Assembly (NCBI RefSeq): GCF_026339875.1
Contig: NZ_JAPEPZ010000005.1
Coordinates: forward strand, 1-64,000
Origin: Streptomyces sp. NBC_01571
Lineage (GTDB): Bacteria; Actinomycetota; Actinomycetes; Streptomycetales; Streptomycetaceae
Length of the DNA stretch: 64,000 bases
Direction: 5' to 3'
Shown here in pieces: positions 12,206 to 33,066 of the stretch (within the stretch, counting starts at the first letter, position 1; every line of letters begins with the position of its first letter). The position numbers and the translations under genes are program-made. The notes beneath the pieces were generated by a model. It searched no databases and had not been told where the DNA came from. It saw nothing but the letters and a program-made list of their open reading frames with translations.

Positions 12206-12234
12206 CCGGGCACTACTCCTTCTCCGCCCTCGAC

Positions 12235-15530: not shown

Positions 15531-16279
15531 CGCTGCCGCCCCTTCGCCCAGACCAGACTCCCGGTCTCCAACAGCCCTCCCGACAGATCCGCCTTCAACT
15601 TCCCCGACCACAGCAGGTGGAACAGCACCGGCAGAACCTGGATCCGGTCGCCGACCCGTCCGCTGCCCTCCCATAAGCCCCTCGGCTCGCTGAACACCTC
15701 CAGAAGGCGCTCAGCCACAGCCTCCGGCCGACCGGAGCGTGCCCGGCGATACCGCGACAGCCACCGGACGTTGGCCATGAACACCGGATCAGGACGGCCG
15801 GCCCACTCGAACTCCCAGCCCACGGCCTCACAAGCACGCTCGGTCGCTGCGAAGGCCTCCCGTGTCCGATCATCCATGTCGTCCTCGGCACGAACGTCCA
15901 CGACCCGGGCCCGCCCCGCAGCCAGCCGGACGAAGTAGTCCGGAGCGTGACGACGCCGTCCCCGGCCGTCGTCCCAGTGCAGCCAGAAAGGCTGCGACGA
16001 TATCGCCGTCACCTGCGGATCGCAGTCGAGCAGGATCAACCGGTCTCGCTCCAGCCACGACTCATACCCCACGTGATCCCGCACGGTCACCGAGTAGTAC
16101 CAGCCGGCGAAGCCCGGCGTTTCCTTGCCCCAACGGAACGGCCGGACAGGTTCGGCCACCTCGAACGGAACCTGCCAACTCGCTCCCAGAGGGAGCCTGC
16201 GGCGCTCTCCATCGCTGAGAAAGTCCAGCTCAAACGCTGCTAACGCCTCATCGCCGTACGCACGCGACAGCGCTTCCAC
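15518..16279 (-). CDS. tnsA: TnsA-like heteromeric transposase endonuclease subunit
   Basis: About 253 residues. The restriction-endonuclease-like core shows GYESWLERDRLILLDCDP (acidic residue), HAPDYFVRLAAGRARVVDVR (Asp and the xDV[KR] motif), matching TnsA proteins that cut the 5' strands so the element leaves the donor completely. Start is uncertain: GTG at 16279 has GGGGGT upstream and begins at VEALSRAYGDEAL; TTG at 16315 is also in frame but abuts the transposon end. It is the first gene inside the right end, the normal place for tnsA in Tn7-like elements. Confidence 0.85.
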   Translation of the reverse strand: MEALSRAYGDEALAAFELDFLSDGERRRLPLGASWQVPFEVAEPVRPFRWGKETPGFAGWYYSVTVRDHVGYESWLERDRLILLDCDPQVTAISSQPFWLHWDDGRGRRRHAPDYFVRLAAGRARVVDVRAEDDMDDRTREAFAATERACEAVGWEFEWAGRPDPVFMANVRWLSRYRRARSGRPEAVAERLLEVFSEPRGLWEGSGRVGDRIQVLPVLFHLLWSGKLKADLSGGLLETGSLVWAKGRQRWAG

Positions 16280-16316
16280 CGCACCCCCAGCCCCGAAGGC
16301 CGAGCAGGCGCTCAAC

Positions 16317-16385
16317 CTTCAGTGAGACTAACGAGCCCCCATTCACCTTCGCTGAGAATCACGGAATCTTCGTTGAGACAGGTCA
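16317..16385. repeat. Right transposon end with three transposase-binding-like repeats
   Basis: CTTCAGTGAGACT (16317-16329), CTTCGCTGAGAAT (16347-16359) and CTTCGTTGAGACA (16368-16380) are inverted relative to the left-end repeats; the terminal GGTCA ends at 16385 and GCCGT follows. Confidence 0.85.
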
Positions 16386-16563: not shown

Positions 16564-17211
16564 ATGCAGGACTACGACCGACCTGCGGTCGGCGTGATCG
16601 ACTACCGCACCGGCAACAGCCAGAGCGTGGGGTACGCGCTCAACTTTCTCGGCGTACCGAACCGTCTGCTCACCTCACCTGACGATCTCGACGGCATCGA
16701 CCGGGTCATCCTGCCGGGTGTCGGATCGGCCGGCACCACCATGGAGTACCTGTCCGAAGCCGGATGGCCCGATGCGCTCCGCGAGCGGGTCGTGGACGGC
16801 GATATGCCCTTCCTGGGCATCTGCGTCGGCCTCCAGGTCCTCTTCGAGGCCAGCGAGGAACAGGACGCGAGGTGCCTGGGATGGATTCCCGGCACTGTGA
16901 AGGCCTTCGACGGTGAACAGGTCCGGGTGCCGCAGATGGGCTGGAACCAGGTACACCGGGCCTCGGACCACCCGTTCCTCGCAGCGTTGCCCAGCGCGGG
17001 CCACTTCTACTTCGTGAACAGCTACTACGCCGACCCCGACGACCCGGCCGACACGGCGGCGACAACTGAGTACGGGGTGCCCTTCACCTCCGCCGTGGCC
17101 CGGGGCAACATCATGGCCACCCAGTTCCACACCGAGAAGTCCGGTCCTCTCGGGCTGGACCTGCTCGAGCGGTTCTCCAACACGCCGCAGGAGGAACTGT
17201 GCCCGCGCTGA
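16564..17211 (+). CDS. hisH: HisH-like glutamine amidotransferase
   Basis: Protein of 215 residues of the HisH class I amidotransferase family, which releases ammonia from glutamine for imidazole-glycerol-phosphate synthase. The triad is present: Cys87 in LGICVGLQVLFE, His189 and Glu191 in QFHTEKSG (usually FHPEKSG). GAGG lies six bases before the ATG. It overlaps the HisF-like gene by 13 bases, so the two are translated together and probably form the usual HisHF complex. No other histidine-synthesis gene is nearby and a biosynthetic-looking operon converges on it, so a role outside histidine synthesis is plausible but not shown. Confidence 0.88.
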   Translation: MQDYDRPAVGVIDYRTGNSQSVGYALNFLGVPNRLLTSPDDLDGIDRVILPGVGSAGTTMEYLSEAGWPDALRERVVDGDMPFLGICVGLQVLFEASEEQDARCLGWIPGTVKAFDGEQVRVPQMGWNQVHRASDHPFLAALPSAGHFYFVNSYYADPDDPADTAATTEYGVPFTSAVARGNIMATQFHTEKSGPLGLDLLERFSNTPQEELCPR

Positions 17212-18011
17212 CCACCAGTACCCTGACGGCCCGTCTGATCGCCTGCTTCGACGTCGTCGAGGGCCGGGTGACGAAGGCCCGCCGCTTCGAGGACAACATC
17301 GACGTCGGCGACGCGGCCGCGATCGCCGCCGCGATGTACGCGGACGGCATCGACGAGATCATTTTCTACGACATCCTCGCCAGTGCTCAGCGCCGCCAGG
17401 CTGACCTGGTGACGATCCGTGCCGTGGCGGAGCAGGTGTTCGTGCCGCTGACGGTGGGCGGTGGGATCCGTTCCCTTGAGGACATGCACGCTGTGCTGGC
17501 AGCTGGGGCGGAGAAGATCAGCCTCGACTCGATGGCGGTCCGTGATCCGCAGATCATCACCCAGGGTTCGGTCGAGTTCGGCCGCCAGTGCATCGTGCAG
17601 TCGATGCAGGTCAAGCGTGTCCCCGCTACGGAGCTGATTCCCAGCGGGTACGAGGTGTTCATCGACGGCGCCCGCGTGGCGACCGGGATGGACGCGATCG
17701 CGTGGGCGCGCCGCGGCGAGGAACTGGGCGCGGGCGAGATCTGCGTGAACAGCATCGACCAGGACGGCACCCACCAGGGATACGACCTGGTGATCACCCG
17801 CGCGATCGCGGATGCCGTCAACCTGCCGGTGATCGCTTCCGGCGGTGCCGGGTCGGCGGAACATGCGGCGGCGGCATTCACGGAGGCGGGCGCCTCCGCG
17901 GCGATCGTCAGCTCGCTGCTGTACTCGCCACGGATGGAGCGCACGCTGCCGGTCGCGGAGATCAAGGCGGAACTCGCCAAGCGTTTCGGGCTGCCGGTCC
18001 GTCAGCTGTAG
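17199..18011 (+). CDS. hisF: HisF-like cyclase, divergent (one catalytic Asp replaced)
   Basis: Protein of 270 residues with the HisF TIM-barrel layout: ARLIACFDVVEGRVTKARRF (Asp18, equivalent to the first catalytic Asp), VPLTVGGGIRSLEDMHAVL, and NSIDQDGTHQGYDL. At the position of the second catalytic Asp (AIDAKRV in T. maritima HisF, Asp130) this protein has QSMQVKRV, so Gln137 replaces it. It is also about 18 residues longer than typical HisF. The GTG start has AGGAGG four bases upstream. Ammonia from the overlapping HisH would be channelled into the barrel; with the altered site the substrate or chemistry may differ from imidazole-glycerol-phosphate synthesis. A related family amidates sugars (WbpG/WbuZ-type pairs). 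Confidence 0.8.
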   Translation: MPALTTSTLTARLIACFDVVEGRVTKARRFEDNIDVGDAAAIAAAMYADGIDEIIFYDILASAQRRQADLVTIRAVAEQVFVPLTVGGGIRSLEDMHAVLAAGAEKISLDSMAVRDPQIITQGSVEFGRQCIVQSMQVKRVPATELIPSGYEVFIDGARVATGMDAIAWARRGEELGAGEICVNSIDQDGTHQGYDLVITRAIADAVNLPVIASGGAGSAEHAAAAFTEAGASAAIVSSLLYSPRMERTLPVAEIKAELAKRFGLPVRQL

Positions 18012-18033
18012 CGGCGTCCCGGACCGACGCATG

Positions 18034-18062
18034 GGGGCCGGCCGCATGATGCGGCCGGCCCC
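18034..18062. terminator. Bidirectional terminator between converging operons
   Basis: GGGGCCGGCCGCA (18034-18046) is a perfect complement of 18050-18062, with a three-base loop. It lies 22 bases after the hisF-like stop and 38 bases after the stop of the converging HisA-like gene, so it can end both transcripts. Confidence 0.8.
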
Positions 18063-18099
18063 AGTCGTACACACGAGGCGCGTAACGAGCGCTCGGCGG

Positions 18100-18858
18100 T
18101 CAGGGATGCGGCGTCACGGGCGGTGTCCGGTGGTGATGGCCGGTGGTGTCGGGCAGGCCGCGCGGAGCGGTGAGGTAGGCGCGGCCGACGACGGCTCCCC
18201 AGCCGAGATGCCACAGCCGCTGCAGGTCCGGCCAGCAGGCCAGGCCGCCCGCGTACCACAGGTCGGCGTGCGGGTGGCGTGCCGCGAGACGGTCGAGGGC
18301 GGCCCAGGGGGGTGGTGTGCGGCGGGTGGCGGCGCCGGCGTCGGTGACCAAGATGGGGTGTTCACTGCTGGTGGCGGTGATGAGTGCGTCCAGTGTGTCG
18401 TCCAGGGGCAGGCCGGTGGGACGGGTGAAGCCGTCGGTGACGACGCGGCCGTCCAGGGCGTCGACGGACAGCATCAGCCGGCCGGCGGGGGCGAGGGCGG
18501 CGAAGTCGGGCCAGTTGGCGGGCTGGAGAAGACCAGCGGGGAACAGGCCGGTGGAGCCGATCAGGGCGCCGGCCGCACCGGCTTCCAGGAGGCGGGGGAT
18601 CGCCGGGTCGCCGGGCGTGAGCCGCCCGCCGACCCACAGGCGTCCGGGGTGGCGCCGGACGGCGGTCTCCAGCAGCGCGGTACTGGTGCTGGTGCCGGTG
18701 GAGCGGTCGAGGTCGATGACAGCGGCGGGCACACCGTCGCCGAGCACGTCGGCGATCAGGCTGCCTGGCGGCAGGCCGGGGTGGGAGGCGACCGTACCGT
18801 GCTGGACGTCGATGTTGACCCGCCACCGGCGGGCGGGTGCGGGGGAAGGGGCGGGCAT
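18100..18858 (-). CDS. HisA-like TIM-barrel protein
   Basis: Protein of 252 residues related to HisA, the isomerase of phosphoribosylformimino-AICAR ribotide. HisA landmarks are visible: RVNIDVQHGTVASH (first Asp), AAVIDLDRSTG, LSVDALDGRVVTDGF (second Asp) and a phosphate-loop region LWYAGGLACWPDL. Identity is low and several glycine-rich loops are changed (VGGRL instead of VGGGIR). It is the last gene of a seven-gene minus-strand operon; a GGGAG site precedes the ATG and the gap to the previous gene is 16 bases. HisA and HisF act in sequence in histidine synthesis, so finding both here beside PRPP-binding proteins suggests a phosphoribosyl-derived product. Confidence 0.65.
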   Translation of the reverse strand: MPAPSPAPARRWRVNIDVQHGTVASHPGLPPGSLIADVLGDGVPAAVIDLDRSTGTSTSTALLETAVRRHPGRLWVGGRLTPGDPAIPRLLEAGAAGALIGSTGLFPAGLLQPANWPDFAALAPAGRLMLSVDALDGRVVTDGFTRPTGLPLDDTLDALITATSSEHPILVTDAGAATRRTPPPWAALDRLAARHPHADLWYAGGLACWPDLQRLWHLGWGAVVGRAYLTAPRGLPDTTGHHHRTPPVTPHP

Positions 18859-18874
18859 CGGGGTGCTCCCGGGT

Positions 18875-20152
18875 TCAGGCGGCGACGTTGAGTGCGGCCG
18901 GGCGGGGGACAGGCGGTTCGGCCCAGGTGGTGGCGTGGCCGAGTTCGGCGCGCATCGCGGCGAGTTGGCCGCTGCTCCAGGTGCCGGTGCTCAGGGCGAG
19001 GTCGAAGGAGTCACGCATCTGCTGGTGCAGCGTGCCGTGGGCCTGGTGGGCGGGGTCGCGGGCGTATTCGTGTGCGTCGCCGCGCAGGAGGTGGCCGATG
19101 AGGCGTTTTTGAATGCTGTGGTGCAGGTTGGGGCGCAGGCTCGGCAGGTCGGCGGCGTCGGCGATGTCGTGGAGTCCGCTGCGGTGGTAGAGGCTCCACG
19201 CGGACTCGACGCTGCGGGTGACAGCCTCGCCGCCGAGCTGCTCGACGAGGGTGCGTGCGGCGCGCAGGGTGCTGCCGTAGCCGCAGTTGTCGTCGACGAC
19301 CAGCACGGTCCTGTCGGTGACGGCGGCCGCCAGGGCCTCGCATTGGGGTGCGGGGGCGGTGGCGCGGTGGCGGATGGTGCCGTCGGCGCCGAGGTAGGGG
19401 ACGGCTGACTGGTCGTGGAAGCCCAGCCGCACCAGGTGCACTCGGACGGGGCGGTCCACGAGCAGCGGCAGCAGGGCGCGGGCGGTCAGGGCCAGGGACA
19501 GTGATCCGTACAGCGGGGCGAGCAGGTCAGTGATGTCGGGGCGGGGCAGCAGGACGTGGTCGGCGAGGAACCGCAGCTCGTTCATCATCTTGGTGTGGTT
19601 GTCGAGCTCCCGGAAGGACCGCCAGCCGCCCTCCAGCCTGGTGAGCAGTTCCAGGTCGGCGGGTGTGACGGCGTCGGGCTCAGGGTGCGGGTGCGCGGTG
19701 TGGAGTGCCGTGACGGCGGCGGTGGCCGTGTCCAGGAGGCGGTCCAGGGCGGCCGGGCGGGGGTCTCCTGGGGCGGCCGGGTGGTCGGTGAGGTGGTGCC
19801 AGAGGGCGTAGGCGCCGGCCGCGGTGAGGTTGTGGAGGTTGTCGAGCAGGGCGTGACGCAGGTGCGTGGTCTGTCCGGGGACGTGGTGGCCGAGGAGAGA
19901 GAGGGTGCCGGCCAGCGCCGCGGCGGCGGGCAGTGCGGTGCGGGGCTGGTAGTAGGCGGCGCTGCGGCCCAGCCGGGTTCCGTGCGCGTCGCAGGGCGGG
20001 AAGAACCGGTCCAGCAGCGCCGGGTGGGCGCCCGCACGGGCCGCGGCGTGCAGTTCAGTGGCGGGGATGCGGACTGTGCCCAGCAGATCACCGGAGACGG
20101 GAGCCCGGTCCGGGCGGGTGGCCGGGCGGCCCGGCAGGACGGTGGTGGTCAT
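18875..20152 (-). CDS. Phosphoribosyltransferase-fold protein
   Basis: Protein of 425 residues. The second half carries a type I phosphoribosyltransferase signature at residues 283-299 (VLVVDDNCGYGSTLRAA), the acidic pair and glycine loop that bind PRPP. The N-terminal 200 residues are helical, His/Ala/Leu-rich and not a domain I know. The stop-start overlap with the HAD gene upstream is ATGA. I do not recognise the family. PRPP binding is suggested by the motif; substrate unknown. Confidence 0.65.
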   Translation of the reverse strand: MTTTVLPGRPATRPDRAPVSGDLLGTVRIPATELHAAARAGAHPALLDRFFPPCDAHGTRLGRSAAYYQPRTALPAAAALAGTLSLLGHHVPGQTTHLRHALLDNLHNLTAAGAYALWHHLTDHPAAPGDPRPAALDRLLDTATAAVTALHTAHPHPEPDAVTPADLELLTRLEGGWRSFRELDNHTKMMNELRFLADHVLLPRPDITDLLAPLYGSLSLALTARALLPLLVDRPVRVHLVRLGFHDQSAVPYLGADGTIRHRATAPAPQCEALAAAVTDRTVLVVDDNCGYGSTLRAARTLVEQLGGEAVTRSVESAWSLYHRSGLHDIADAADLPSLRPNLHHSIQKRLIGHLLRGDAHEYARDPAHQAHGTLHQQMRDSFDLALSTGTWSSGQLAAMRAELGHATTWAEPPVPRPAALNVAA

Positions 20153-20952
20153 GTCGGTTCCGTTTCACGGGCCGGACGCCGGACGGCATGCGCGGCCAGG
20201 GCGTTCAGGCAGGAGGGGAGGTCGGGGAAGCGAGCGGCGGGAGGCCGGCCGGGCGGCGCGGGGACGGTGTCGGGACAGATCCAGACCGGGTGCATCCCGG
20301 CACCATGGGCGCCTACGACGTCGTTGGCCCAGCTGTCCCCGACGTACAGGCACTGCTCGGGGGCGACGGACAGGTCGGAGCACGCGTGGAGGAACGGGGC
20401 CGGGTCGGGTTTGCGGGCTCCGGTGTCCAGGGCGCACACCACCGTCTCGAAGGCGCCGTCGAGTCCGGCGTGTCCGAGCTTGGCGTGCTGGGTGGAGCGG
20501 TCGCCGTTGGTGACCACACCGAGCCGGTAGCGCAGTGCGAGCCGCTCCAGCAGTGCCGCGGTCTGCCGGTCGGGGGTGATCGCGAGAAGTTGCTGCCGGG
20601 CGAAGTCGGCGACGAGAGCGCCGAGTTCCCTCTCGTCCGGCTGGATACCGCACTCGTGCAGCGCGGTACGCCAGACGTGGGCGCGGATGACCGGCGTCGG
20701 GCCGAGGTGGGCGAGTGCCTGTTCGTAGTCGCGCCACAGCGTGTCGGACACCCGCGTGTAGGCGGCGGCGATGGCCGGCCCGCTCACGCCGGAGTGCGTG
20801 TGGGCGAGGGGCTGGGTGACGGTGTCCAGGGCGGTGGTCCAGCACGGCAGGTAGGGCACGAGGGTGTCGTCGAGGTCGAAGAGCACCGTGGTGATGCCTG
20901 TCGGCAGCCCGTAGGGGCTGCCCGGGGTACCGACGGCGGGTGCGGGGTTCAC
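20149..20952 (-). CDS. HAD-family hydrolase
   Basis: About 267 residues with HAD motif I at VLFDLDDTLVPY, motif II near GVVTNGDRS, the motif III Lys in DTGARKPDPAPF and motif IV in YVGDSWANDVVGA: all catalytic parts of a subfamily IA phosphatase. The GTG at 20952 overlaps the stop of the preceding fusion gene. In this operon it probably removes phosphate from a pathway intermediate, which is inference. The frame is open further upstream but only as antisense of the fusion gene. Confidence 0.85.
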   Translation of the reverse strand: MNPAPAVGTPGSPYGLPTGITTVLFDLDDTLVPYLPCWTTALDTVTQPLAHTHSGVSGPAIAAAYTRVSDTLWRDYEQALAHLGPTPVIRAHVWRTALHECGIQPDERELGALVADFARQQLLAITPDRQTAALLERLALRYRLGVVTNGDRSTQHAKLGHAGLDGAFETVVCALDTGARKPDPAPFLHACSDLSVAPEQCLYVGDSWANDVVGAHGAGMHPVWICPDTVPAPPGRPPAARFPDLPSCLNALAAHAVRRPARETEPT

Positions 20953-23909
20953 CGGGCAATTCCGTGGCCGGTCATCCGGGCACCGAGGGCGACTGCTGCC
21001 AGCCCGAACGGGCCGCCCGGCCCTGCGGGGGTGCCTGGTGGGGTGAGGCGGAAGAAGAGGTCGGGCAGGAGCAGGCCCAGGATGCGGCTGCGGTCCACGG
21101 GCAGGCCCTCGAAGTGGTCGAGCAGCCAGGGTGTGGTCAGGAGCAGTTCTCCGAGCGGACCCAGGGGGCGGCAGGTGATGTCCACGATGTTGCCGCGGAC
21201 GGCGACGGCAGGATCGGTGAGCAGGCCCGTGTGCTTGAGGCAGGACCCGACAAGTTTGGCCAGTGACTGGTCGAGGTCGTGCAGTCCGGCGAACTCGGCG
21301 TCGATCACCCACCATTGGTGCGGGTCAGCCCGGTCGACGAGGACGTTGCCGAGGTGGAGGTCCCCGGTGCCGTAGGCGAGGTGGCCGCCCGGAGGCAGCG
21401 AACGACGGGCCAGGTGCACCAGCCCCGCGCAGGTGAGCTGCGTGGGTTCGCCGTTGAGGTGAAGGGCGTGGTTCCACCAGGGCCTCATCCGGCGGGCCAG
21501 GTCCTCCACCCAGCCGGACAGCACCACGGGGGTCTGCAGTGAGTGATCGGCGTCCTGCTCCCGGTAGGGGCGGGCGGTGGCGGTGATCAGGCGGACCAGC
21601 CGCACGGACAGGTCACCGAGCACGCGGGTGAAGGCGCCCGGGTCGGTGACGGCCAGGTTGCGCAGGGCGCCAGCGTCGAGGTGCTCGACGATCAGGGTGG
21701 CGTTGTCGCCCTGGTAGTGCAGCGCGGTCTCCGGGACGGGCAGGTGCCGCGCCAGGACCTGCAGGCCGGTGTGTTCCCGTTCGGCGAAGGCCGTGGAGCG
21801 CCCGGGTTTGACGATGACGGGGCCAGCCGGGGTGCGGGCGGCGAAGACCGGGCCGCTGCTGGGCCGCAGCTGTGTGATGGCGCCGTCCGGCGAGGTGTAG
21901 GAGCAGGCCGGGCCGTGACTGTCGGAAGTGATCTGCCAGGACTCGGCAGGCACTTCGGCCCGCACCCGGGCGACAGCCGTGTCGACGGCCACGGTCAGCT
22001 CCAGGGGCGACGGCCGCTGGGCGAGCAGATCGGGATCGAGGAGTCCGGCGTCGAGCAGCGACCAGTGCCCCGTCTCGTCCTCGCCCGCGTACAACAGCCG
22101 GACCTGCCCGGACCGGTCGGGGACCAGCGCGGGATAGAACGCGTAACGGGCGTCCGGCGCACCGGGTCCTGCGCGGTGCAGGATCGTGCCCAGCGGCCGC
22201 CAGCTCTTCCCATCCACGCTGTGTGCGGCGGCCAGGCATCGGGCGGTGCCGGCGCCGTAGACCATCAGCAGCCCGCCGTCGGCAGTCGGCGCCAGGGCGG
22301 GGCAGTCCGCCGCGTAGGCGTCCGGTGCGCCCGGTATGCCGGTGTCCAGGACGATGCCGTGGCGCTGCCAGGAGGTGCCGTCGGTGGAGGTGGCCAGGTG
22401 GATGCGCCGGTGGTGGCCGTCCCGCCCGGCGTACCACATCCACCAGGCGCCGCCGCGTCGCAGGACGGCGGGCATCAGGACGTGTTCGCTCTCGCTCGCG
22501 TGTCCGCTGCTGGGCTCCAGCACGGTCTTCGGGGTGGTCCAGGTGGAGCCGCCGTCGTGGCTGAGGGTGCGGTAGATCCGCCACGGGCCGCCGTCAGCAC
22601 GGGCGCTGAGGAAGGCGATAAGGGTGTTGCCGTCGCTGACCAGACTTGGGCCCATGACGTCGTCACAGCCGTCCGGGACGGGCAGCGGGCGGGCATCGGC
22701 CAGCAGGACGGGGCCGGTGTGCGGCAGCTGGCACAGCATCACCCGGTTGCGGCCGCCGGTGTACCAGGGTTCGGGGGCCCGGCCGGGCAGCTGCCGCGGC
22801 TCGTAGGTGCGCGCGGAGCTCGGGCCGGTGGTGAGGGCGAGCAGGCGGCGGCCGCGGTGCTGGACCGCAGCTGGTGCGAAGCACACCGAGTCAGTCGCGT
22901 CGGCCAGCACGGTGCGGTGCCGTCCGACGCTGTCCGGGCGTCCGCTGCTCCGGCGTCCGGGTGCGGGCGGGCGGGGAAGGCCGGTGCGGGTGGCGGTCAG
23001 GAGGAAGTGGTCTCCGGCCTCTACGAGTTCGGGCAGGCCGGTGGTGGCCAGGACAGCGTCGCTCAGCTGCGTGAATGCGGCCCGGTCGGCGGCTGCCTGG
23101 TCGACGTAGGGGCGCATCCAGGCCGCGACGCCCTCCAGGGAGTAGCGGTCGCTGATTTCCAGCCCGGCGCCGCGCAGCAGGTCTTCGGCCTCGCGAAGGC
23201 TGTGGGTGCGGGTGGGCGGCATGTAGTCGGTGTCCGGGACGCCTGCTGGTGGCTGGTAGCGGCCGTGGCCGAGGTAGCCGGAGGCGGCCAGGGCAGTCAT
23301 GTCGGTGAAGCGGCCGCGCTTGAGGAGGTCACGCAGGACGGAGGTCCGCGTGAGGAAGATCGCGTACAGGCGGCCGCCGGGCGCCAGAGCGGCCGCTGCG
23401 CGGCGCACCGTCTCGGCGGCATCGGCGTCGTCAAGTAGGTGGTAGAGCGGTCCGAACAGCAGCACCGCGTCGAAGTGACCTGGCGGGGCGAGGAGTTGGG
23501 CTGGGCTGTGCCATGTGCCGAGCAGCTGCCCCTCCAGTCCGGCTTCCCTGAACCGGTCGCGGGCAACGGCCAGGCTCGCGGCGGACAGGTCGGACAGGGC
23601 GACAGTGTGGCCGCGGCGGGCCAGGGCCAGGGCATGGACGCCGGGGCCGGAGCCGATGTCGAGGATGCGGCCGGCCGGCGGGAGAGCGGCGAGGACCTGG
23701 CGGTGGATGACCTCAGCCTCCAGCCGGTGGTAGGGGCTCGAGCGGGTGCGCTGCCACTCCCGGGCCGGGTCCGCGTCGTAGAAGGCGGCCACACGCGCCA
23801 GATCAGAGCCGGTGCCAGTGGAAGCCGCGGTGGTGGAGCCGTCCTCGGCGGGCGAGTTCGGCGAGGTGGGGTTCGAGAAGGTCGGGGCCGAGGTCATGGC
23901 CGAGTTCAC
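20949..23909 (-). CDS. Three-domain fusion: SAM methyltransferase, beta-propeller, APH-like kinase
   Basis: Protein of 986 residues with no frameshift. Residues about 35-310 are a class I methyltransferase (RILDIGSGPGVHALALARRG, then ALSDLSAASLAVA). Residues about 335-640 contain repeated blades with Asp/Trp motifs (LSHDGGSTWTTPKTVLEPSS, then LATSTDGTSWQRHG), like the five-bladed propellers of GH43/GH32/sialidase-type proteins. Residues about 660-980 resemble aminoglycoside phosphotransferase/choline-kinase folds: a Lys in VIVKPGRSTAFAEREH, catalytic loop GTGDLHLGNVLVDR and WWVIDAEFAGL. The start is uncertain: GTG at 23909 has AAAGG upstream but overlaps the previous gene by about 107 bases; GTG at 23792 would avoid overlap. 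Substrates are unknown; methyl transfer, sugar binding and phosphorylation on one chain fit tailoring of a small molecule. Confidence 0.75.
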   Translation of the reverse strand: MNSAMTSAPTFSNPTSPNSPAEDGSTTAASTGTGSDLARVAAFYDADPAREWQRTRSSPYHRLEAEVIHRQVLAALPPAGRILDIGSGPGVHALALARRGHTVALSDLSAASLAVARDRFREAGLEGQLLGTWHSPAQLLAPPGHFDAVLLFGPLYHLLDDADAAETVRRAAAALAPGGRLYAIFLTRTSVLRDLLKRGRFTDMTALAASGYLGHGRYQPPAGVPDTDYMPPTRTHSLREAEDLLRGAGLEISDRYSLEGVAAWMRPYVDQAAADRAAFTQLSDAVLATTGLPELVEAGDHFLLTATRTGLPRPPAPGRRSSGRPDSVGRHRTVLADATDSVCFAPAAVQHRGRRLLALTTGPSSARTYEPRQLPGRAPEPWYTGGRNRVMLCQLPHTGPVLLADARPLPVPDGCDDVMGPSLVSDGNTLIAFLSARADGGPWRIYRTLSHDGGSTWTTPKTVLEPSSGHASESEHVLMPAVLRRGGAWWMWYAGRDGHHRRIHLATSTDGTSWQRHGIVLDTGIPGAPDAYAADCPALAPTADGGLLMVYGAGTARCLAAAHSVDGKSWRPLGTILHRAGPGAPDARYAFYPALVPDRSGQVRLLYAGEDETGHWSLLDAGLLDPDLLAQRPSPLELTVAVDTAVARVRAEVPAESWQITSDSHGPACSYTSPDGAITQLRPSSGPVFAARTPAGPVIVKPGRSTAFAEREHTGLQVLARHLPVPETALHYQGDNATLIVEHLDAGALRNLAVTDPGAFTRVLGDLSVRLVRLITATARPYREQDADHSLQTPVVLSGWVEDLARRMRPWWNHALHLNGEPTQLTCAGLVHLARRSLPPGGHLAYGTGDLHLGNVLVDRADPHQWWVIDAEFAGLHDLDQSLAKLVGSCLKHTGLLTDPAVAVRGNIVDITCRPLGPLGELLLTTPWLLDHFEGLPVDRSRILGLLLPDLFFRLTPPGTPAGPGGPFGLAAVALGARMTGHGIAR

Positions 23910-24519
23910 GCAGCCTTTCGTCGATCTGTTTCGTGGTCAGGGGGCCGGCGGCCAGCAGGCAGGCGGCGGTCTGGTCGAAGTCGCGAAGGACCCGCCACGG
24001 CAGGACCAGCGCGGGAAGGTCGCTCATCGTCCGTGCGGCGAACTGCGGTGCCGGATCGGCACGGTCGGACGTGGCCAGGCACGCCAGCTGCGGGCTGTAC
24101 GGGGCGAGCTGGCTGAGGTAGTAGCGGGCGGTGCGGCCGGAGTCGACGACTTCGTCGACCACGACGACCGGCTGCCCGGCCGGTGGGGTGGCCGGCGTCA
24201 GCAGGCCGTCCGTGGCGGCGAACAGGCTGATGCCATCGGTGCGGCCGCCGTGGTGGCGGGCCGCGGCGGCCAGCACCAGCGAGCCGGGCAGAAGGTCGGC
24301 CAGCGACTGCGCGGTGATCCAGCCGCCTTGCAGCACCCCGACCAGCGTGAGTGGCCCAGGATGCTGAGCGCGGATCTGTGCCGCCACGTCGGCGGCCATC
24401 ACCTGGTAGGCCCGCCAGGACACCATCCGGGCGCGGCGCCCGTCGGCGGCCGAGAAGACCAGGTCACAAACCGGCACCGGCACCGGTGCGCTGTCCGCGG
24501 GCAGCCGGGGGTCAGACAC
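23803..24519 (-). CDS. Phosphoribosyltransferase with C-terminal winged-helix-like tail
   Basis: Protein of 238 residues. The PRPP motif VVVVDEVVDSGRTARYY is at residues 118-134, preceded by GVLQGGWITAQSLADLL, where such enzymes place the PPi loop; xanthine/hypoxanthine-type phosphoribosyltransferases are the closest class I recall. Residues about 190-238 (TTKQIDERLRELGHDL) look like a small winged helix. The ATG overlaps the stop of the upstream gene by eight bases. It may salvage or build a nucleotide intermediate. Confidence 0.72.
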   Translation of the reverse strand: MSDPRLPADSAPVPVPVCDLVFSAADGRRARMVSWRAYQVMAADVAAQIRAQHPGPLTLVGVLQGGWITAQSLADLLPGSLVLAAAARHHGGRTDGISLFAATDGLLTPATPPAGQPVVVVDEVVDSGRTARYYLSQLAPYSPQLACLATSDRADPAPQFAARTMSDLPALVLPWRVLRDFDQTAACLLAAGPLTTKQIDERLRELGHDLGPDLLEPHLAELARRGRLHHRGFHWHRL

Positions 24520-25912
24520 GGCGGACCTCCGGCGCGTACCGGTCCCACAGCAGCGCCAGCAGCCGGTCCGAGCCGCCCGACACCCGTGCGAAGGCCGCGA
24601 CGGCGCTCTCTCCGGGCGGGCCCGGACGCTTGCGCCGAGCCCACAGGCTCGGCGCGGCAGGAAGGACCCCGCCCACCTGTCGCACCTGTTCTTCCAGCGT
24701 GGCCAGGTGGTCGGCGACGTCCCGGCCTAGCGCGGTGAGTTCCTCGGGATGGTTGAACGGGGTGCCGACGTCCAGGGTGAGCGGCACCAGGTACACCGCT
24801 GCCGGGGTGCCGGTCAGGCTGTCGCGCAGCCCGTCGTGCGTGCGGCCGGTGAACACGCTGTCGTCCACGTGCACGACCACCACGCCGTCGGCATCCAGTG
24901 GACCGGTCCGCCACGTGCCCGCAGCGACGCGGGCCATCTCCGCCTCGTGGACGGAGAATCGGCTCACGGCCAGCCGGACCCTGGCCCGATCGGCGGCCGG
25001 GAGCATTCCGGCGAGCAACGGGCCGACGGCCATCGCGCCGAACGCCTCGCTCACCAGCAGCACTGGCGCCTGGGGGTGGGAGTGGGTGATCGCGGGCCAG
25101 CGGGTGTAGGCGACGGCGGCGACCTGCCACAGCACGTCGCCCTCGCGCACCGCGCGCACCGCATCCGCCGCCGCGCCGCGACAGGCCAGCTCCCCGCCGA
25201 CGCCGTGGAGCACCTCGGCGGCGTGCGGGTCGGCCAGCAGCGCAACCGCCCGGTCTCCCCACGTGTGCGGAGCGCACGGACCGGCTGCCGGATGCCAGCG
25301 GTTGAAGGAGGCTTCGGCCAGCAGCACAGCGAGACCTTCGAGAAGGCCGTCCAGGACGGCCGCCGTCTCTTCCTGTCCGAGGGCTGCCGCGCTCCACCGG
25401 GCGGTGCACACGTCGTTGACGGCCGCTTCGAGGAACGCCAGCCAGGCCAGCCACGGATACCACCGGGCCGGTTCTTCTGCCGCGCCGTCGGCCAGCGGCC
25501 GGGCGAACGCCGCGTACCGCGGCCACCGCTCGGCCACCAGCGAGAAGCGACGGGCCGGGGACGGGGCGCGGCCGGGCAGGTACATCTGTGCGTCGGCGGC
25601 GTAGTAGCCGAAACCGCGCAGGTAGGCCCAGCCGTCGCGGACCGCCATGTCGGAAAAGAAGTCCGCTGCCGCACTGCCGAGTTGACCCGTGTGGGAGGCC
25701 GGGATCCGGAAGCCGCCGCCCTCCGCCAGATGCTCCAGCGGTGCAGGAGCACCCTGGAGAGGAAGGACGACACAGCCGCTGGCCGCGAACTGCTGCGTCC
25801 AGCGCTTCTCCAGTTGCCGCCGGTTGGCGTCGATCTCCCGGGACCAGGCGAAGATCCGCTGCCGCTCGGGAGTCGTCAGCCGCTCCGAGCGGCCTGCCGT
25901 CGGGGCGGCCAT
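24512..25912 (-). CDS. Unrecognised protein with a PRPP-binding-like motif
   Basis: Protein of 466 residues. Residues 344-358 read VVVVHVDDSVFTGRT, again the acidic pair plus glycine loop of type I phosphoribosyltransferases, preceded at about 284-304 by PVLLVSEAFGAMAVGPLLAG. The first 260 residues are helical and rich in Trp and Ala with no domain I can name. Start ATG at 25912 overlaps the aminotransferase stop (TGATG). It is the third protein of this kind in one operon. The motif is seen; enzymatic activity is inference. Confidence 0.6.
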   Translation of the reverse strand: MAAPTAGRSERLTTPERQRIFAWSREIDANRRQLEKRWTQQFAASGCVVLPLQGAPAPLEHLAEGGGFRIPASHTGQLGSAAADFFSDMAVRDGWAYLRGFGYYAADAQMYLPGRAPSPARRFSLVAERWPRYAAFARPLADGAAEEPARWYPWLAWLAFLEAAVNDVCTARWSAAALGQEETAAVLDGLLEGLAVLLAEASFNRWHPAAGPCAPHTWGDRAVALLADPHAAEVLHGVGGELACRGAAADAVRAVREGDVLWQVAAVAYTRWPAITHSHPQAPVLLVSEAFGAMAVGPLLAGMLPAADRARVRLAVSRFSVHEAEMARVAAGTWRTGPLDADGVVVVHVDDSVFTGRTHDGLRDSLTGTPAAVYLVPLTLDVGTPFNHPEELTALGRDVADHLATLEEQVRQVGGVLPAAPSLWARRKRPGPPGESAVAAFARVSGGSDRLLALLWDRYAPEVRRV

Positions 25913-27120
25913 CAGGCGGCGTCCCGTACGGCCAGGTCCCGGGAGACGTCGGCGAAGGCGGCGGCGTACGCGTCGATCGTCTGCGGACTGTCGTGAGGGG
26001 TGACGGTCACACTGATCCGGCCCGAGTCGAAGGCGGCCGCTCCGGGAAACGGACCGCAGAGCCGGGGACACCAGGTCCCGGCGGCGGCCCGCATCGGGAC
26101 CGGGTCGGTGAACATGGGCATGTCCTGAAGCGAGCCGATCGACGGGTAGTGCGCCGGGACACCGGCCGCCTGCAACCTGCGCAGATACCCGTCCGTATCC
26201 GCCCCGCGCTTCAGCTGCAGGGTCTGGATCTGGGGCCGGTAGCTGAACCATCCGCCCATGCCCGCGCCCGGGCGCACCACCGGCGGCCGGACACCCGGCA
26301 CCGACTCCAGGAGGCGGCTGAACCTCTCCAACAGCGCAGTGCGGGCCGCGACCCGTTCCACCAGCCGCTCAGCGTTGGCCAGCGCGACGACGGCGGCCAG
26401 CGGGTGCATGCGCATCTTCAGGCCAAGCCCGGTCTCGCCGAACACCCGCAGCGCCTCGTCCTCCAAGGCCAGGGCGCGGCCGCGGTAGTGCCCGGCCAGC
26501 ACAGCCCGTTCGTACAGTGACCGCAGCCGGGTGCCGAGGATGCCGCCCTCACCGGCGACCAGGGTCTTGCGCGCCTGGAGACTGCCGACGGCGATATCCC
26601 CGAACATGCCGACCGGCCGCCCCTGCCACGTGGACAGAACTGCGTGGCTGAAGTCCTCGATCAGGCGCAGATCCCGTGCACGGCAGATCTCGGCGATCTT
26701 GTCCATCTCGGCGGGGTGCCCCAGGTAGTGGGTGACGGTCACACACCGGGTCATCGGTCCGATAGCCGCCTCCAGCGCGGCGGGCGACATGGTCCCGGTG
26801 TCCGGCTCGACGTCGACCAGCACCGCGTTCAGCCGGCAGTGCGCGGCCGGAGTCAGCGACGCATGGAAGGTGTTGACGGCGCCGATCACCTCCGAGCCGG
26901 GCGGCAGGTCCAGGGCCAAATAGGCCGCGTGCAGAGCTGCCGTGCCCGACGCGAACGTGAGCGTGTTCGACAAGCCCAGAACATCGCTGAGCTGTGCTTC
27001 CAGGCGTCCGATCACCCCGGAGCCGTCGGCGATCGACAGCTGGCCGCCGCCGCGCACGTACTGCGCCAGGGCCTCCGCGACGTGGTCAAGTTCCAAATCC
27101 GCAGGAGCGGTCTGCGACAT
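25912..27120 (-). CDS. DegT/DnrJ/EryC1/StrS-family aminotransferase
   Basis: Protein of 402 residues, the normal length of the family that aminates keto-sugars and related compounds using PLP. Seen are the glycine-rich start TFASGTAALHAAYLALDL, Asp156 in LIEDFSHAVLSTW (pyridine-nitrogen ligand) and Lys185 in GSLQARKTLVAGEGG (Schiff base). The ATG at 27120 has GGAG seven bases upstream and is the first gene of the seven-gene operon. Such enzymes are typical of aminosugar or aminocyclitol units in secondary metabolites and surface sugars. Confidence 0.88.
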   Translation of the reverse strand: MSQTAPADLELDHVAEALAQYVRGGGQLSIADGSGVIGRLEAQLSDVLGLSNTLTFASGTAALHAAYLALDLPPGSEVIGAVNTFHASLTPAAHCRLNAVLVDVEPDTGTMSPAALEAAIGPMTRCVTVTHYLGHPAEMDKIAEICRARDLRLIEDFSHAVLSTWQGRPVGMFGDIAVGSLQARKTLVAGEGGILGTRLRSLYERAVLAGHYRGRALALEDEALRVFGETGLGLKMRMHPLAAVVALANAERLVERVAARTALLERFSRLLESVPGVRPPVVRPGAGMGGWFSYRPQIQTLQLKRGADTDGYLRRLQAAGVPAHYPSIGSLQDMPMFTDPVPMRAAAGTWCPRLCGPFPGAAAFDSGRISVTVTPHDSPQTIDAYAAAFADVSRDLAVRDAA

Positions 27121-27335
27121 GCCGTTCTCCAGGTCCTGCGCACACCGGTCGGTGCCCGGTGCACGCCCTAGGCGGGAATCCCGGACGGCGGCCCCTGCGG
27201 GGCGGCCGTCCGCGCCGCGGGCACGGTCTGCGCCGGCGGGGTGCACCAGCAGACAGCGACGCCGCAGGCTGCGGCAGAGGGGACGGGTGAGAACGGTGAG
27301 AACGTCAGGGTGAGACTGAGAAAAGCCGAGAATTC
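27121..27335. promoter_or_regulatory. Divergent control region with a hairpin
   Basis: This 215-base spacer separates the operon start from the divergent regulator gene and must hold both promoters. Bases 27183-27195 and 27199-27211 form a 13-bp stem with one mismatch and a three-base loop, so the operon transcript may begin with a strong hairpin. No clear -10/-35 pair can be assigned by eye. Confidence 0.45.
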
Positions 27336-28811
27336 GTGCCCAACCCGCGCAGACTGACCTACCGTTTGCTTGTGATATCTCTCCGCAGCGCAGCGCTGGA
27401 CCGGTTACCGGCGCCCGGCGGACGCATACAGAACCAGCACCTCGCCGACGCCTTGGAGTGCACCGGCTGGTCACCGCGCGAACTTGTGCGCACCCTCAAC
27501 CCGCGCCTGGACGCCATCGGCGAACCCGCCCTGCACCTCACTGCCGGCCGCAGCTGGCTGAACGGCGCTCAGCCACGTTCCGAGACCGTCCGCCGCCTCG
27601 TCGCCACCGTGATCACCGAGGCCACCGGCGATACCTACACCACAGCCGACCTGTGGGGACACGAACAACGCCCCAGCCACCGGGAGAAGACGGCCACCGA
27701 CGACCTCCTCGGCCGACGCTCCCTGACCGAGATCCTGGCCACCGCCACCGCATGGACCGCCACCGAACCGCGGGAACAAGCCGTCCTCCACCCGGCCACC
27801 GACACCACCCTGTTCAGCGCCGTCTGGGATGCCACCCGCCAAGCACCGCTCCACACCTTCCCGGGATCAGGCCCCGACGAGGTCATCCCCCCGTTCATGG
27901 ACGCCCTCGAAGGCCACCTGCGCCAGCTACGCCGCCTCGACGACACCGCCGGCGGCGGCGCCCTGCCCCAGCGCTACGTACGCAGCGAGCTCGCGGGCGT
28001 CCTGGAACTCGTACGCAACAGCCGCTACAGCACCGACATCGGCACCCGTCTGCTGATCACAGCCAGCGGAATGGCCCAACTCGCAGGCTGGATGGCCTTC
28101 GACGCCGACCTCAACGCCGCCGCCCAGCGCTACCAGCTCCTCGCCATCCGTCTCGCCCGCTCCGCCGGCGACACCCACGCCGTCGCCAACGTCCTGGGCA
28201 TGCTCTCCTACCAGCACGCCGCCTGCGCCAAGCCCGCGGCCGCCCTGCGCTTCGCCGAAGCCGCCGTCGACCACACCGCGCGCAGCCTGCCCATCGTCCG
28301 CGCCCGGGCATGGGGACGGCTGGCCACCGCGTACGCCGTAGCCGGCGACACAGACGCCTTCCGCAACGCCACCGAACGCTGCCACCTGCTGCTGCAGCAC
28401 CGCCGCGACGACGACCCCCCAGCCCTGTACTACTTCACCCCCGAACAGGTCGCCGCCGAGACCGGCCACGCCCTCGTCGAACTCGCCGCAGCCAACCCCG
28501 GCCACGCACGACGACTCCTCGCCGAAGCCACCGAACACCTGTCCCCACTCGCCGACAACGGTCCGACCAGCGGCTTCCAGCGCTCCGCTCTCCTGCACGG
28601 CATCCACCTCGCGCGCGCCCACCTCCTCGCGCACGACACCGAAACCACCCTGCACACGCTGCTGCGACTGGCCGACCACGTGCCGCACGTTCAGTCGATC
28701 CGCTGCCGCAGCCTCCTGCGCCGCATCCGCCGCCAGGCAGGCACCCACATCCACTCCCCGGACGGCGCTGATGCGCTCGCTATGGTCGACCGGGCACTAT
28801 CGGTGTCATGA
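27336..28811 (+). CDS. Probable transcriptional regulator with TPR-like C-terminus
   Basis: Protein of about 491 residues starting at GTG. The N-terminal 100 residues resemble an XRE-like DNA-binding region (QNQHLADALECTGWSPRELV, then SRSWLNGAQPRSETVRRLVA-like stretch). The rest is a helical TPR-type repeat region, a layout common among Streptomyces pathway regulators. It is divergent from the operon and overlaps the following GNAT gene by ATGA. A later in-frame start near 27371 is possible. Control of the adjacent cluster is inferred from position. Confidence 0.65.
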   Translation: MPNPRRLTYRLLVISLRSAALDRLPAPGGRIQNQHLADALECTGWSPRELVRTLNPRLDAIGEPALHLTAGRSWLNGAQPRSETVRRLVATVITEATGDTYTTADLWGHEQRPSHREKTATDDLLGRRSLTEILATATAWTATEPREQAVLHPATDTTLFSAVWDATRQAPLHTFPGSGPDEVIPPFMDALEGHLRQLRRLDDTAGGGALPQRYVRSELAGVLELVRNSRYSTDIGTRLLITASGMAQLAGWMAFDADLNAAAQRYQLLAIRLARSAGDTHAVANVLGMLSYQHAACAKPAAALRFAEAAVDHTARSLPIVRARAWGRLATAYAVAGDTDAFRNATERCHLLLQHRRDDDPPALYYFTPEQVAAETGHALVELAAANPGHARRLLAEATEHLSPLADNGPTSGFQRSALLHGIHLARAHLLAHDTETTLHTLLRLADHVPHVQSIRCRSLLRRIRRQAGTHIHSPDGADALAMVDRALSVS

Positions 28812-29305
28812 CCACCTTCAGCGTTGCCCAGCCCAGCGAATCCGCCCGGCTGCTGAGGGAGGTGCCCTACGACCATCCCGACGCACGCCGCCTCACCCAG
28901 GCCCTGTACCGGGAACAGGTCGCCACCTACGGGTTCGCCGACGACCCCGCCGACACCCCCGCCGCGCACTTCGACCCACCGCACGGGCTGTTCCTCATCG
29001 CTGACCGGGACGGTGTGGCCGTGGGCTGCGGCGGCATCCGCCTCCTCGACGCGAACACCGCAGAGATCAAACGGATGTACGTGACGGCTACCGCGCGCGG
29101 CCAAGGCCTGGGCAGGCACATTCTTCGGAGCCTGGAGGACCAAGCAGCCTCCCGGGGTGCCATGCAGATCGTCCTGGAGACCGGTGTCAGCAATCACGGT
29201 GCCCTGGCGCTCTACCAGAGCAGTGGATACGGGCCTCGCCCCTCATACGTATCTGGTCGAGACCCCTTCGTGAACCGCGCTCTGACGAAGCAACTCGGAG
29301 AGTGA
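28808..29305 (+). CDS. GNAT-family N-acetyltransferase
   Basis: Protein of 165 residues with the acetyl-CoA binding motif A: IKRMYVTATARGQGLGRHIL (R/Q-x-x-G-x-G/A), and motif B near NHGALALYQSSGY. Its ATG overlaps the regulator stop. Substrate cannot be read from sequence; it might acetylate a product or intermediate of the neighbouring cluster, or a protein. Confidence 0.88.
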   Translation: MTTFSVAQPSESARLLREVPYDHPDARRLTQALYREQVATYGFADDPADTPAAHFDPPHGLFLIADRDGVAVGCGGIRLLDANTAEIKRMYVTATARGQGLGRHILRSLEDQAASRGAMQIVLETGVSNHGALALYQSSGYGPRPSYVSGRDPFVNRALTKQLGE

Positions 29306-29545: not shown

Positions 29546-29742
29546 CCTGTCTGAGATCTCTGGAAAAGGGGATCCCGTCGGTTACTAGATCATGACCAAC
29601 CCAGAAACCTTCAGTAGTGTGAGGCACAGGCCGCACTTCTGTCCTATAGCGTCCCCATGCCGAGATCATCCGGCTCGATGCCGGTTGGCCGATGGAGTGA
29701 GACGGCCCGTGTGCCGGGCCACCTCACGAACTGGAGAACGCC

Positions 29743-30051
29743 TTGCCCAGATGGGCCATCCTGCAAGCTGCGGGCCAGTCGGAAGCCTTCACCTACGGCG
29801 TCTACCGTGAAGTCGAAGGAACCGAAGCTGAAGCTCTTGCCGTGATGCGGGGCCTCATCGACACCTTCGATGAGGCTAGAACCGAGAGAAAGCGGAAGCG
29901 GCAGACGCGACAAGTCTTCCGGCTCTCCGAGCGCACCTACTTCGTCCGCGTCCAGTATCCGTGGGCCTCCGACGAGAGTGCCCAGTTCACGCTCGCCGAA
30001 CTCATAGCGGACACCAGTTCCGACGATCTCCCGGATATTGTTGGAGGCTAG
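29743..30051 (+). CDS. Hypothetical protein, 102 residues
   Basis: Starts at TTG with GGAG upstream (spacing 7). Sequence is charged and soluble (GVYREVEGTEAEALAVMRGL, then FRLSERTYFVRVQYPWASDE), apparently one alpha/beta domain. Composition and reading-frame bias look coding. Not a family I recognise. Flanked by an HNH fragment and a transposase gene. Confidence 0.55.
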   Translation: MPRWAILQAAGQSEAFTYGVYREVEGTEAEALAVMRGLIDTFDEARTERKRKRQTRQVFRLSERTYFVRVQYPWASDESAQFTLAELIADTSSDDLPDIVGG

Positions 30052-30133
30052 ACCTCCTACCAGTCTGCCTCCTTAGCGTCTGGCTGAGATCCCGGCTCGT
30101 TGATGGTCCGTGGGCGCGTGCGGGCATGCCTTT

Positions 30134-30168
30134 GCGCTGTGGAGCCGCCTTCGGCGGCTCCACAGCGC
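30134..30168. terminator. 16-bp stem-loop terminator
   Basis: GCGCTGTGGAGCCGCC (30134-30149) is the exact complement of 30153-30168; the apex is a C-UUCG-G type tetraloop. It lies between the end of the 102-residue gene and the stop of the converging transposase gene and could stop both. Confidence 0.75.
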
Positions 30169-30180
30169 CGGGGATGAAGC

Positions 30181-31077
30181 TCAGGGTGAGGACTGCCAAG
30201 GGGGCCCAAGGTGGGGCGAGGGTCGGCCGGTCAAGCTTCTCGACCAGCTGGCGTGAGGGCCTTTGCGCGTGAGCCGGCGGGTCATCAGAGTGATGAGTGC
30301 CCAGGTCAGGTGGGCTTCTGAGTGCTGCGGAAGACGTTCGTAGTCGCGGACGTTGCGGCGGGCTTTCATGATCCAGCCCAGGGTCCGTTCGACTTTCCAG
30401 CGCCTGGGCAGGACGACGAAGCCTTTCGCGCCGCGGGGGCGGGAGACCGTTTTGAGGGTCATGTTGAGGAAGCTGCCCGACCAGTTGATGAGCTGGCCGC
30501 CGTAGGCGGAGTCGGCCCAGACCTGCGTGATCTGCGGTTGCATGACCCGTAGCCGCCAGAGGAGTTCGCGGGCCGCGTCACGGTCGGTGGTGTCGGCAGG
30601 CGTCACCGTGATCATCACCGGAAGCCCGAGGGTGTCGACGGCGATGTGTCTCTTGCGGCCGTTGATCTTCTTCCCGGCGTCGAACCCGCGGGTGGCCTTG
30701 GAGACTGTCTCGGCGCCTTTGACCGACTGCGAGTCGAGGATCAGCGTCACCGGCCAGGGGCATCGCCCCTGGCCCGTGCGGATCTGTCGACGGAGTTGAT
30801 CACGGAGATAGCCGATGACGCCGCGGCGGTGCCAGGCGGCGAAGTGGTAGTAGACGGTCTGCCAGGGCGGATAATCCGCAGGCAAAGCCCGCCACTTGAC
30901 TCCGTTGTCGACGAGATAGCGGATCGCGTCGACGATGTCGCGCCGTGGCCACTTCTCCGGTCGGCCGCCCATCTTGGTCTGGCAGGCCGGCAGGGGAAGC
31001 AGCGGTTCGATCAGCGCCCACTCCGCGACCGTGGTGTCGGAGGGATAGCGGCGACGGCGGGTCGTTGAAGCTCGCAT
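30181..31077 (-). CDS. IS5-family transposase (second type)
   Basis: Protein of 298 residues, unlike the transposase at 8.6 kb. DDE residues are in LILDSQSVKGAE, QVWADSAYGGQLI and KVERTLGWIMKARRNV. N-terminal helical part (ALIEPLLPLPACQTKMGGRP) and the insertion domain are complete. It is followed by a strong stem-loop and preceded at 16 bases by the racP stop, so the element probably inserted beside racP. I could not define its inverted repeats, so element borders are left open. Confidence 0.88.
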   Translation of the reverse strand: MRASTTRRRRYPSDTTVAEWALIEPLLPLPACQTKMGGRPEKWPRRDIVDAIRYLVDNGVKWRALPADYPPWQTVYYHFAAWHRRGVIGYLRDQLRRQIRTGQGRCPWPVTLILDSQSVKGAETVSKATRGFDAGKKINGRKRHIAVDTLGLPVMITVTPADTTDRDAARELLWRLRVMQPQITQVWADSAYGGQLINWSGSFLNMTLKTVSRPRGAKGFVVLPRRWKVERTLGWIMKARRNVRDYERLPQHSEAHLTWALITLMTRRLTRKGPHASWSRSLTGRPSPHLGPPWQSSP

Positions 31078-31093
31078 GAGGAGAGGTCCGGGG

Positions 31094-31528
31094 TCATTTG
31101 GAGAGCTGGGCGAGGGTGGCGCGGACGCCGGTGAGCTGGGCGGATGCGAGCTGGGCCCACTCGTCGTCGGGGTGGCGCATGAGGTGCGGGTCGAGCGTCC
31201 CCGTGATCAACCGGGTGAGGCGGCCAAGGACGAGACGGAACTGCTTCTTCTCGTATTCGATCCAGTCGGCCGGTTCCTCGGAGAAGAGATAGCCGTCCTT
31301 GCGGCGCCAGATGATCGGGGTCAGGTGCTCCGAGGCCCCGACGTCCCGCAGATGACGGACTCCCCGGGCGACCTGCGACGGAGAGAGACGGGTGGCGGCG
31401 ACCAGCTGCTTGGTCTGGAGTCCTGATGGTCGGGCTTCCATGAGCGAGACGCGGACCAGGTCGCCGTAGTGCTCGGACAAGGGCCGGGCCTGACCGGCGC
31501 CTCGGGGAGGGCGGGACACTGCTGTCAC
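31094..31528 (-). CDS. racP: RacP-like protein
   Basis: Protein of about 144 residues. A winged-helix-like N-terminal half (LQTKQLVAATRLSPSQVARG) is followed by a basic and helical C-terminal half with RRKDGYLFSEEPADWIEYEK. This fits the RacP proteins often annotated on Streptomyces replicons, usually next to a DUF6192 gene. The GTG start overlaps the stop of the (broken) DUF6192 gene as GTGA. Name and family are from recall; its molecular role is not established to my knowledge. Confidence 0.5.
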   Translation of the reverse strand: MTAVSRPPRGAGQARPLSEHYGDLVRVSLMEARPSGLQTKQLVAATRLSPSQVARGVRHLRDVGASEHLTPIIWRRKDGYLFSEEPADWIEYEKKQFRLVLGRLTRLITGTLDPHLMRHPDDEWAQLASAQLTGVRATLAQLSK

Positions 31529-32902: not shown

Positions 32903-33066
32903 GGGCGGAGGCTATAGCGTCCTGGGCTCAGTCCTGAACTCAGAGGAATGATGCGAGCGACTCGCTTCCGCTCTCTGTGCCTCACGTGCCTCAAGACCAC
33001 CACCGCGCTAAGATCCATATGTACCAAAGGCATTGCGCTCCATCCCGATTTGAGTGTGCAGATAAC

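Follow-up and report, generated by a model that had tools for sequence, protein, structure and literature searches.

Genes and predicted proteins of the cluster

The window analyzed here is the whole 64,000-nucleotide stretch (positions 1 to 64,000) of contig NZ_JAPEPZ010000005.1 (C5, 89,634 bases) from the 11.5 Mb genome of Streptomyces sp. NBC_01571. Its segment 16564–29305 holds eleven genes, A–K, nine of which (A–I, 16564–27120) form the core of a real and uncharacterized gene cluster that is rare but well conserved. On the plus strand, A (16564–17211) encodes a HisH-like glutaminase subunit that scores above the TIGR01855 cut-off and contains the Cys/His/Glu triad. A overlaps by 13 bases gene B (17199–18011), whose product is a HisF of a type that we label ‘DQ’ on the basis of alignments and a tree. 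The pair converges on gene C across a perfect 13-bp hairpin (18034–18062), a possible bidirectional terminator that is absent from the list of a T-tract scan. The minus strand carries an operon in the order I, H, G, F, E, D, C, in which I/H, H/G, G/F, F/E and E/D overlap and D and C are separated by 16 bases, and J and K are transcribed divergently from I. The genes annotated on the near-identical plasmid NZ_CP109471 match these, and G and F overlap there by 95 bases as well. No RNA element reached the gathering threshold between 16000 and 30000; a sigma-70 scan returned 0 sites (chance expectation 0.3). The gene set and its arrangement, as described in an earlier note on this DNA, are borne out by the profile matches, the operon overlaps and the hairpin between B and C.

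The first gene of the operon, I (25912–27120, minus strand, as are all genes of the operon), encodes a DegT/DnrJ/EryC1 aminotransferase (PF01041, 195 bits) and E (20149–20952) a HAD-family phosphatase (PF00702, 90 bits). Three products resemble phosphoribosyltransferases (PRTases). H (24512–25912; 466 amino acids) has the PRTase fold with a large helical insertion and a 5-phosphoribosyl-1-pyrophosphate (PRPP) motif, VVVHVDDSVFTGRT, features that define a type I PRTase. D (18875–20152; 425 amino acids) is PRTase-like with the PRPP motif VLVVDDNCGYGST, and the profile comparison of D and H gave a weak match (probability 25%, E 7.7e-4). G (23803–24519; 238 amino acids) resembles hypoxanthine-guanine phosphoribosyltransferase (HGPRT) over residues 42–149 (PF00156, 41.1 bits) and has a C-terminal extension. 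F (20949–23897) is a fusion of an S-adenosylmethionine (SAM) methyltransferase, a GH43/GH130-like five-bladed propeller and an APH-type kinase. Its structure model is of moderate quality (predicted local distance difference test, pLDDT, of 64), and the propeller match shows a predicted fold and is not evidence of activity; the third part of F was scanned in six loci, that of strain NRRL WC-3626 being left out. On the plus strand, J (27372–28811) encodes a tetratricopeptide repeat (TPR) regulator of the NsdA family (NF053720, 208 bits versus a cut-off of 75), and K (28808–29305) a GNAT acetyltransferase (PF00583).

C (18100–18858) encodes a divergent HisA/PriA-like isomerase. In alignment with PriA of the host, to which it is 23% identical, it keeps the Asp pair, at positions that we take to be catalytic, together with the TD motif and the phosphate-site glycines, and its first loop is shorter. 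Since this alignment includes host PriA, a search with the derived profile is biased; the identity of C is therefore based on PF00977 (26.6 bits) and on a direct sequence search that matched HisA structures (E 3.6e-5). The TIGR00007 score of 29 bits is below the cut-off of 228.95. The C of one partial locus (L013), present as a 75-amino-acid frame only, was left out of the alignment. We infer from these motifs that C is an Amadori isomerase. By alignment or by eye, the cluster proteins mostly keep the motifs of working enzymes.

Conservation, distribution and mobility

The same nine-gene order was found in seven loci, namely the window, plasmid NZ_CP109471 (L064), S. zinciresistens (L008), strain NRRL WC-3626 (L009), S. 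humidus (L010), S. lonarensis (L011) and genome G286. A Streptosporangiaceae metagenome-assembled genome (MAG; L012) has all seven operon genes from I to C at 40–61% identity, with the methyltransferase of F encoded as a gene of its own so that the fusion becomes two genes, and only the 3′ part of hisF, approximately 5 kb from the operon where the contig ends. At locus L013 only A, B, C and part of D are present, and the Streptomyces genome G280 has the same cluster as S. zinciresistens. J and K are regarded as optional because neither was found next to the cluster in G286 or in L012. A phosphotransferase-like gene (assigned by eye) adjoins hisH in G286 (positions 3331–4338 of locus L024) and was not seen at the other clusters compared. 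From locus to locus, the identities of the genes follow that of H (r 0.93–0.99 across 21 locus pairs, or 15 in the case of HisH). These pairs are not independent of one another, and for D of G286 the comparison covers part of the protein. The cluster is a co-inherited, mobile unit of nine core genes. The earlier note had named recurrent co-conservation of the genes as its own test, and the seven syntenic loci, the nearly syntenic L012 and the correlated identities provide it for the nine core genes.

The unit is sparsely distributed. D occurs in 7 of 392 sampled Streptomyces genomes, full-length in 5 and as a fragment in 2; the five with the full-length protein are exactly those that have HisF-DQ. 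D was found in its own genome only among the 61 genomes searched first, as was HisF-DQ among 394 genomes sampled from the class of the window. A 5.8-billion-entry database yielded 28 relatives of D, including its own entry, of which 24 were aligned (P0018, P0023, P0024 and P0025 left out); for H, the window protein was aligned with 27 of 33 relatives (P0156, P0158, P0160, P0165, P0172 and P0175 left out). Contigs of equal size (464,294; 64,604) suggest that further relatives of D, H and HisF are co-located. Genome G269 (L020/L031) has a short D fragment, probably a remnant, with no other cluster gene in the surrounding 18 kb, and genome G278 (L021, L022) has two weak D copies (E 2.8e-7), one near either end of an 11.5 Mb contig.

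L064, which carries the cluster, is a linear plasmid, and in G286 the cluster lies deep inside a chromosome-sized contig (10,413,473). In a comparison extending to position 39251, the window and L064 are 97–99.5% identical, except at 8600–9565, 9775–16384 and 29547–33067. The segment 9775–16384 is a Tn7-like element with a TnsA-like protein, a Mu/rve-type transposase, a TniB-like ATPase and an rve integrase. As it ends about 180 bases upstream of hisH, the element is read as a neighbor outside the cluster. The possibility that the cluster is cargo of the element was ruled out; L064 has the cluster without the element, which fills the alignment gap. The segment 8600–9565 is an insertion of about 1 kb relative to L064 with one open reading frame of 280 amino acids, probably an insertion sequence, and an IS4/5-family transposase (30181–31077) lies just past the cluster within the stretch missing from L064. 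Genes for DNA polymerase III alpha, Ku and an ATP-dependent DNA ligase are grouped at 1289–6934, likewise on plasmid L064.

Active site and clade of HisF-DQ

In canonical HisF, Asp11 serves as the general acid and Asp130 as the general base, as stated in excerpts of PMC11350729. The cluster HisF keeps Asp11 (window residue 18), with Gln in place of Asp130 (residue 137) and Asp in place of Asn103 (residue 110). Residue numbers are those of Thermotoga maritima HisF, presumably so for Asn103. The earlier note does not mention this pair of replacements. The Asp103/Gln130 combination is present in 7 of 7 cluster HisF proteins and in 145 of 145 relatives, comprising the 120 listed of 2253 and 25 loci from the class of genome G430. 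In contrast, Asn103/Asp130 is found in all 27 canonical HisF rows (28 loci, L034–L061, of which L034 gave no row) and in the canonical HisF of the host itself. A quick tree, calculated without the partial L012 HisF, places HisF-DQ in a single clade apart from canonical HisF (SH-like approximate likelihood ratio test, SH-aLRT, 100; branch 4.0), and the window protein scores 266.7 bits against the TIGR00735 cut-off of 294.55.

The G430 class is probably Acidimicrobiia, as the Acidimicrobiia protein P0099 lies beside G816, of the same class, in the tree. HisF-DQ occurs in 25 of 198 genomes sampled from this class, and relatives were also found in a Firmicutes MAG (P0126) and in Streptoalloteichus (P0046). 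Fifteen of the 25 genomes, 13 of them at least 90% complete, were checked for a second HisF. No match exceeded the TIGR00735 cut-off, and in all 15 HisF-DQ was the only strong HisF match (269–292 bits), the one exception being a WbuZ-like protein of genome G843 (L098). The remaining matches, at 81–112 bits, are HisA, as shown in G430 and assumed in the others. All 15 genomes contain hisB. In G430, a single contig, hisC-hisB-hisA lie together and hisH-hisF-DQ elsewhere, with no other HisF. Because no other strong histidine-type HisF accompanies it in any of the 15 genomes checked, all of which have hisB, HisF-DQ is probably a working imidazole glycerol phosphate (IGP) synthase. A dead HisF that has lost Asp130 is judged unlikely given the reciprocal Asn103Asp replacement and the sole-HisF pattern. 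We propose that residue 103, which presumably lies on the strand neighboring residue 130, takes over the role of the base. The clade is of note in itself, with a textbook catalytic residue replaced, a reciprocal Asn-to-Asp change and, in some bacteria, apparently no other IGP synthase to rely on.

Proposed pathway and comparison with known systems

The cluster probably encodes a specialized-metabolite pathway leading to a phosphoribosyl-derived, aminonucleoside-like product. In the proposed scheme, the PRTases D and H, and perhaps G, would join the 5-phosphoribose of PRPP to a nitrogen nucleophile, and C would convert the N-phosphoribosyl compound into an N-phosphoribulosyl compound by an Amadori isomerization like that of HisA. 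The aminotransferase I would place an amino group onto the keto-sugar carbon, the methyltransferase and GH43-like domain of F would carry out tailoring, and the phosphatase E would remove the 5-phosphate. Inside the cell, the product may be masked by the APH-like kinase of F, together with the acetyltransferase K where present. This route would end in an aminosugar of nucleoside-like character, similar to histidine-pathway intermediates. In that case HisH and HisF-DQ would serve as an additional, complete IGP synthase, which belongs to a clade of its own and keeps histidine synthesis going despite the mimic; canonical copies of hisH, hisA (priA, on contig C1) and hisF are present in the host genome. 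None of the eleven proteins scanned belongs to a polyketide synthase (PKS), nonribosomal peptide synthetase (NRPS) or terpene family; as no described pathway was matched either, the product is perhaps of a new chemical class.

Taken as a whole, the pathway combined with HisHF as an insensitive second IGP synthase is the best explanation and approaches an even chance. The assignment of a resistance role to HisHF is in itself tentative. It is narrowly preferred because the pair evolves slowly, lies on its own strand, opposite to the operon, and belongs to a clade that apparently performs the normal reaction. Across the locus pairs the mean identity is 84% for HisH and HisF, the slowest-evolving of the cluster genes, versus 54–69% for the others. 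Doubtful, but of interest, is the specific proposition that the cluster makes a mimic of a histidine intermediate that inhibits IGP synthase, along with a resistance copy whose base has moved from residue 130 to 103, or else that this same remodeled enzyme forms a new ring of the product. Animals lack histidine synthesis, and a natural IGP synthase inhibitor accompanied by its own resistance copy would, if true, therefore be a useful lead.

Several points weigh against the resistance role and the scheme around it. Canonical HisF evolves more slowly still, with 92–96% identity among the host genome, G286 and G280. The active-site swap is common to HisF-DQ of another class and need not have been born of resistance here, and the presence of a HisA homologue within the same cluster favors two consecutive biosynthetic steps. 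The roles of the PRTases, the kinase, the propeller and the isomerase are assigned from fold and motif, and the product and enzyme activities of the cluster are predictions from sequence. No transporter family was found among the eleven proteins scanned, which is unusual for an antibiotic. A narrow open-access search returned no paper linking IGP synthase, a natural product and self-resistance, and we know of no natural inhibitor of IGP synthase.

A biosynthetic function for HisHF-DQ is only slightly less likely. Ammonia from glutamine would be channeled into the ribulosyl intermediate formed by C, which would be cyclized or cleaved to yield an imidazole-type ring or a piece resembling 5-aminoimidazole-4-carboxamide ribotide (AICAR). 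HisA-like and HisHF-like proteins do occur together, and C and B converge both in L013 and in the Streptomyces loci. The glutaminase triad is kept in 7 of 7 cluster HisH proteins aligned, and HisF residues Arg12, Glu53, Lys106 and Glu180, which we take to be the ammonia gate, are invariant. Cluster HisF also differs from the G430-class proteins at positions such as 60, 134, 136 and 192. However, the two sets have identical residues at 164 of 193 positions conserved in both, fewer differences than a new substrate would be expected to require; HisHF is encoded opposite to the operon, and HisF-DQ elsewhere apparently catalyzes the normal reaction.

That probable normal activity would also suit HisHF-DQ as an extra supply of ordinary AICAR or IGP as a building block, and excerpts of PMC13055916 describe HisG homologues in adechlorin/pentostatin-type clusters and a HisA homologue in that of adechlorin. 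Such a supply is nevertheless improbable, as one mid-pathway enzyme adds little flux and the contig of the window has no match to HisG or SAICAR synthetase. Still less probable is a product that stays inside the cell as a nucleotide-like cofactor, a signal or a defence nucleotide, in place of a secreted metabolite. The absence of a transporter family from the eleven proteins would fit, as would the number of PRTases, the kinase, the phosphatase and the strongest match of the PADLOC protein models to nine of the eleven proteins, that of Mad2 to the methyltransferase domain of F (E 1.3e-18). This match spans only profile positions 266–418 of 492, though, and the others are weaker and at the level of domains (PRPP motif, HAD, generic methyltransferase); the NsdA-family regulator and the patchy, mobile distribution also speak against an intracellular role. 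A chance grouping of unrelated genes, to which the mobile elements on either side might point, is contradicted by the synteny and co-inheritance across Streptomyces and the Streptosporangiaceae MAG and is very improbable.

The imidazole-like product suggested in the earlier note may or may not be right: the HisF clade looks like a working IGP synthase elsewhere, and HisHF may protect the host or supply an ordinary step rather than make a new imidazole. The alternative suggestion of a nucleoside-like product is still a reasonable guess, consistent with the adechlorin precedent as excerpted from PMC13055916. The further claim that no described pathway has this gene set agrees with the open-access literature searched, in which none was found, subscription papers and MIBiG being outside the search. 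No HisHF was present in any nucleoside cluster among the open-access search matches listed.

Compared with known systems, J resembles the NsdA-family regulators of Streptomyces in exceeding the family cut-off and is unlike NsdA and NsdB themselves in scoring far below their equivalog cut-offs. HisHF shares with canonical IGP synthase both subunits, the glutaminase triad, HisF Asp11, the glycine-rich phosphate-site motifs and PF00977, and departs from it in HisF Gln130/Asp103, the score below the TIGR00735 cut-off and the separate clade. The WbuZ/AglZ/HisF2 proteins of acetamidino sugars are likewise HisF/HisH paralogues, and the known ones act outside histidine synthesis. The window HisF is below their cut-offs (TIGR03572, 225.7 versus 299.7; NF038364, 186.5 versus 310), and the WbuZ-like protein of G843, the only one aligned, keeps Asn103/Asp130 and has Leu at Asp11, the reverse of the cluster HisF. 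In that genome an N-acetyl-sugar amidotransferase-like gene (by eye) is followed by hisH- and WbuZ-like genes (L098, 1927–4463). An amidotransferase of the acetamidino type was not among the eleven proteins scanned. The scores and the reversed active-site pattern rule out an acetamidino-sugar HisF2.

The nearest precedent, by analogy, appears to be the adechlorin/pentostatin/coformycin/pyrazomycin family. Excerpts of PMC13055916 describe adeK as a HisA/PriA homologue, adeC/penA as a HisG homologue and adeA as SAICAR synthetase, and report that adechlorin-type clusters have taken up adeK and homologues of hisG; the terms ‘HisF’ and ‘HisH’ are absent from its main text. The sole match to HisG (PF01634) in the genome is at C1:2431517-2431990 and that to SAICAR synthetase (PF01259) at C1:5169039-5169791, with none on C5, and membership in the pentostatin/adechlorin clusters is thereby ruled out. 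As in adechlorin, a HisA-family isomerase, C, has been recruited beside host priA in an actinomycete cluster. Unlike that family, the window cluster combines it with HisH/HisF, three PRTase-fold proteins, a DegT aminotransferase and a methyltransferase/propeller/kinase fusion.

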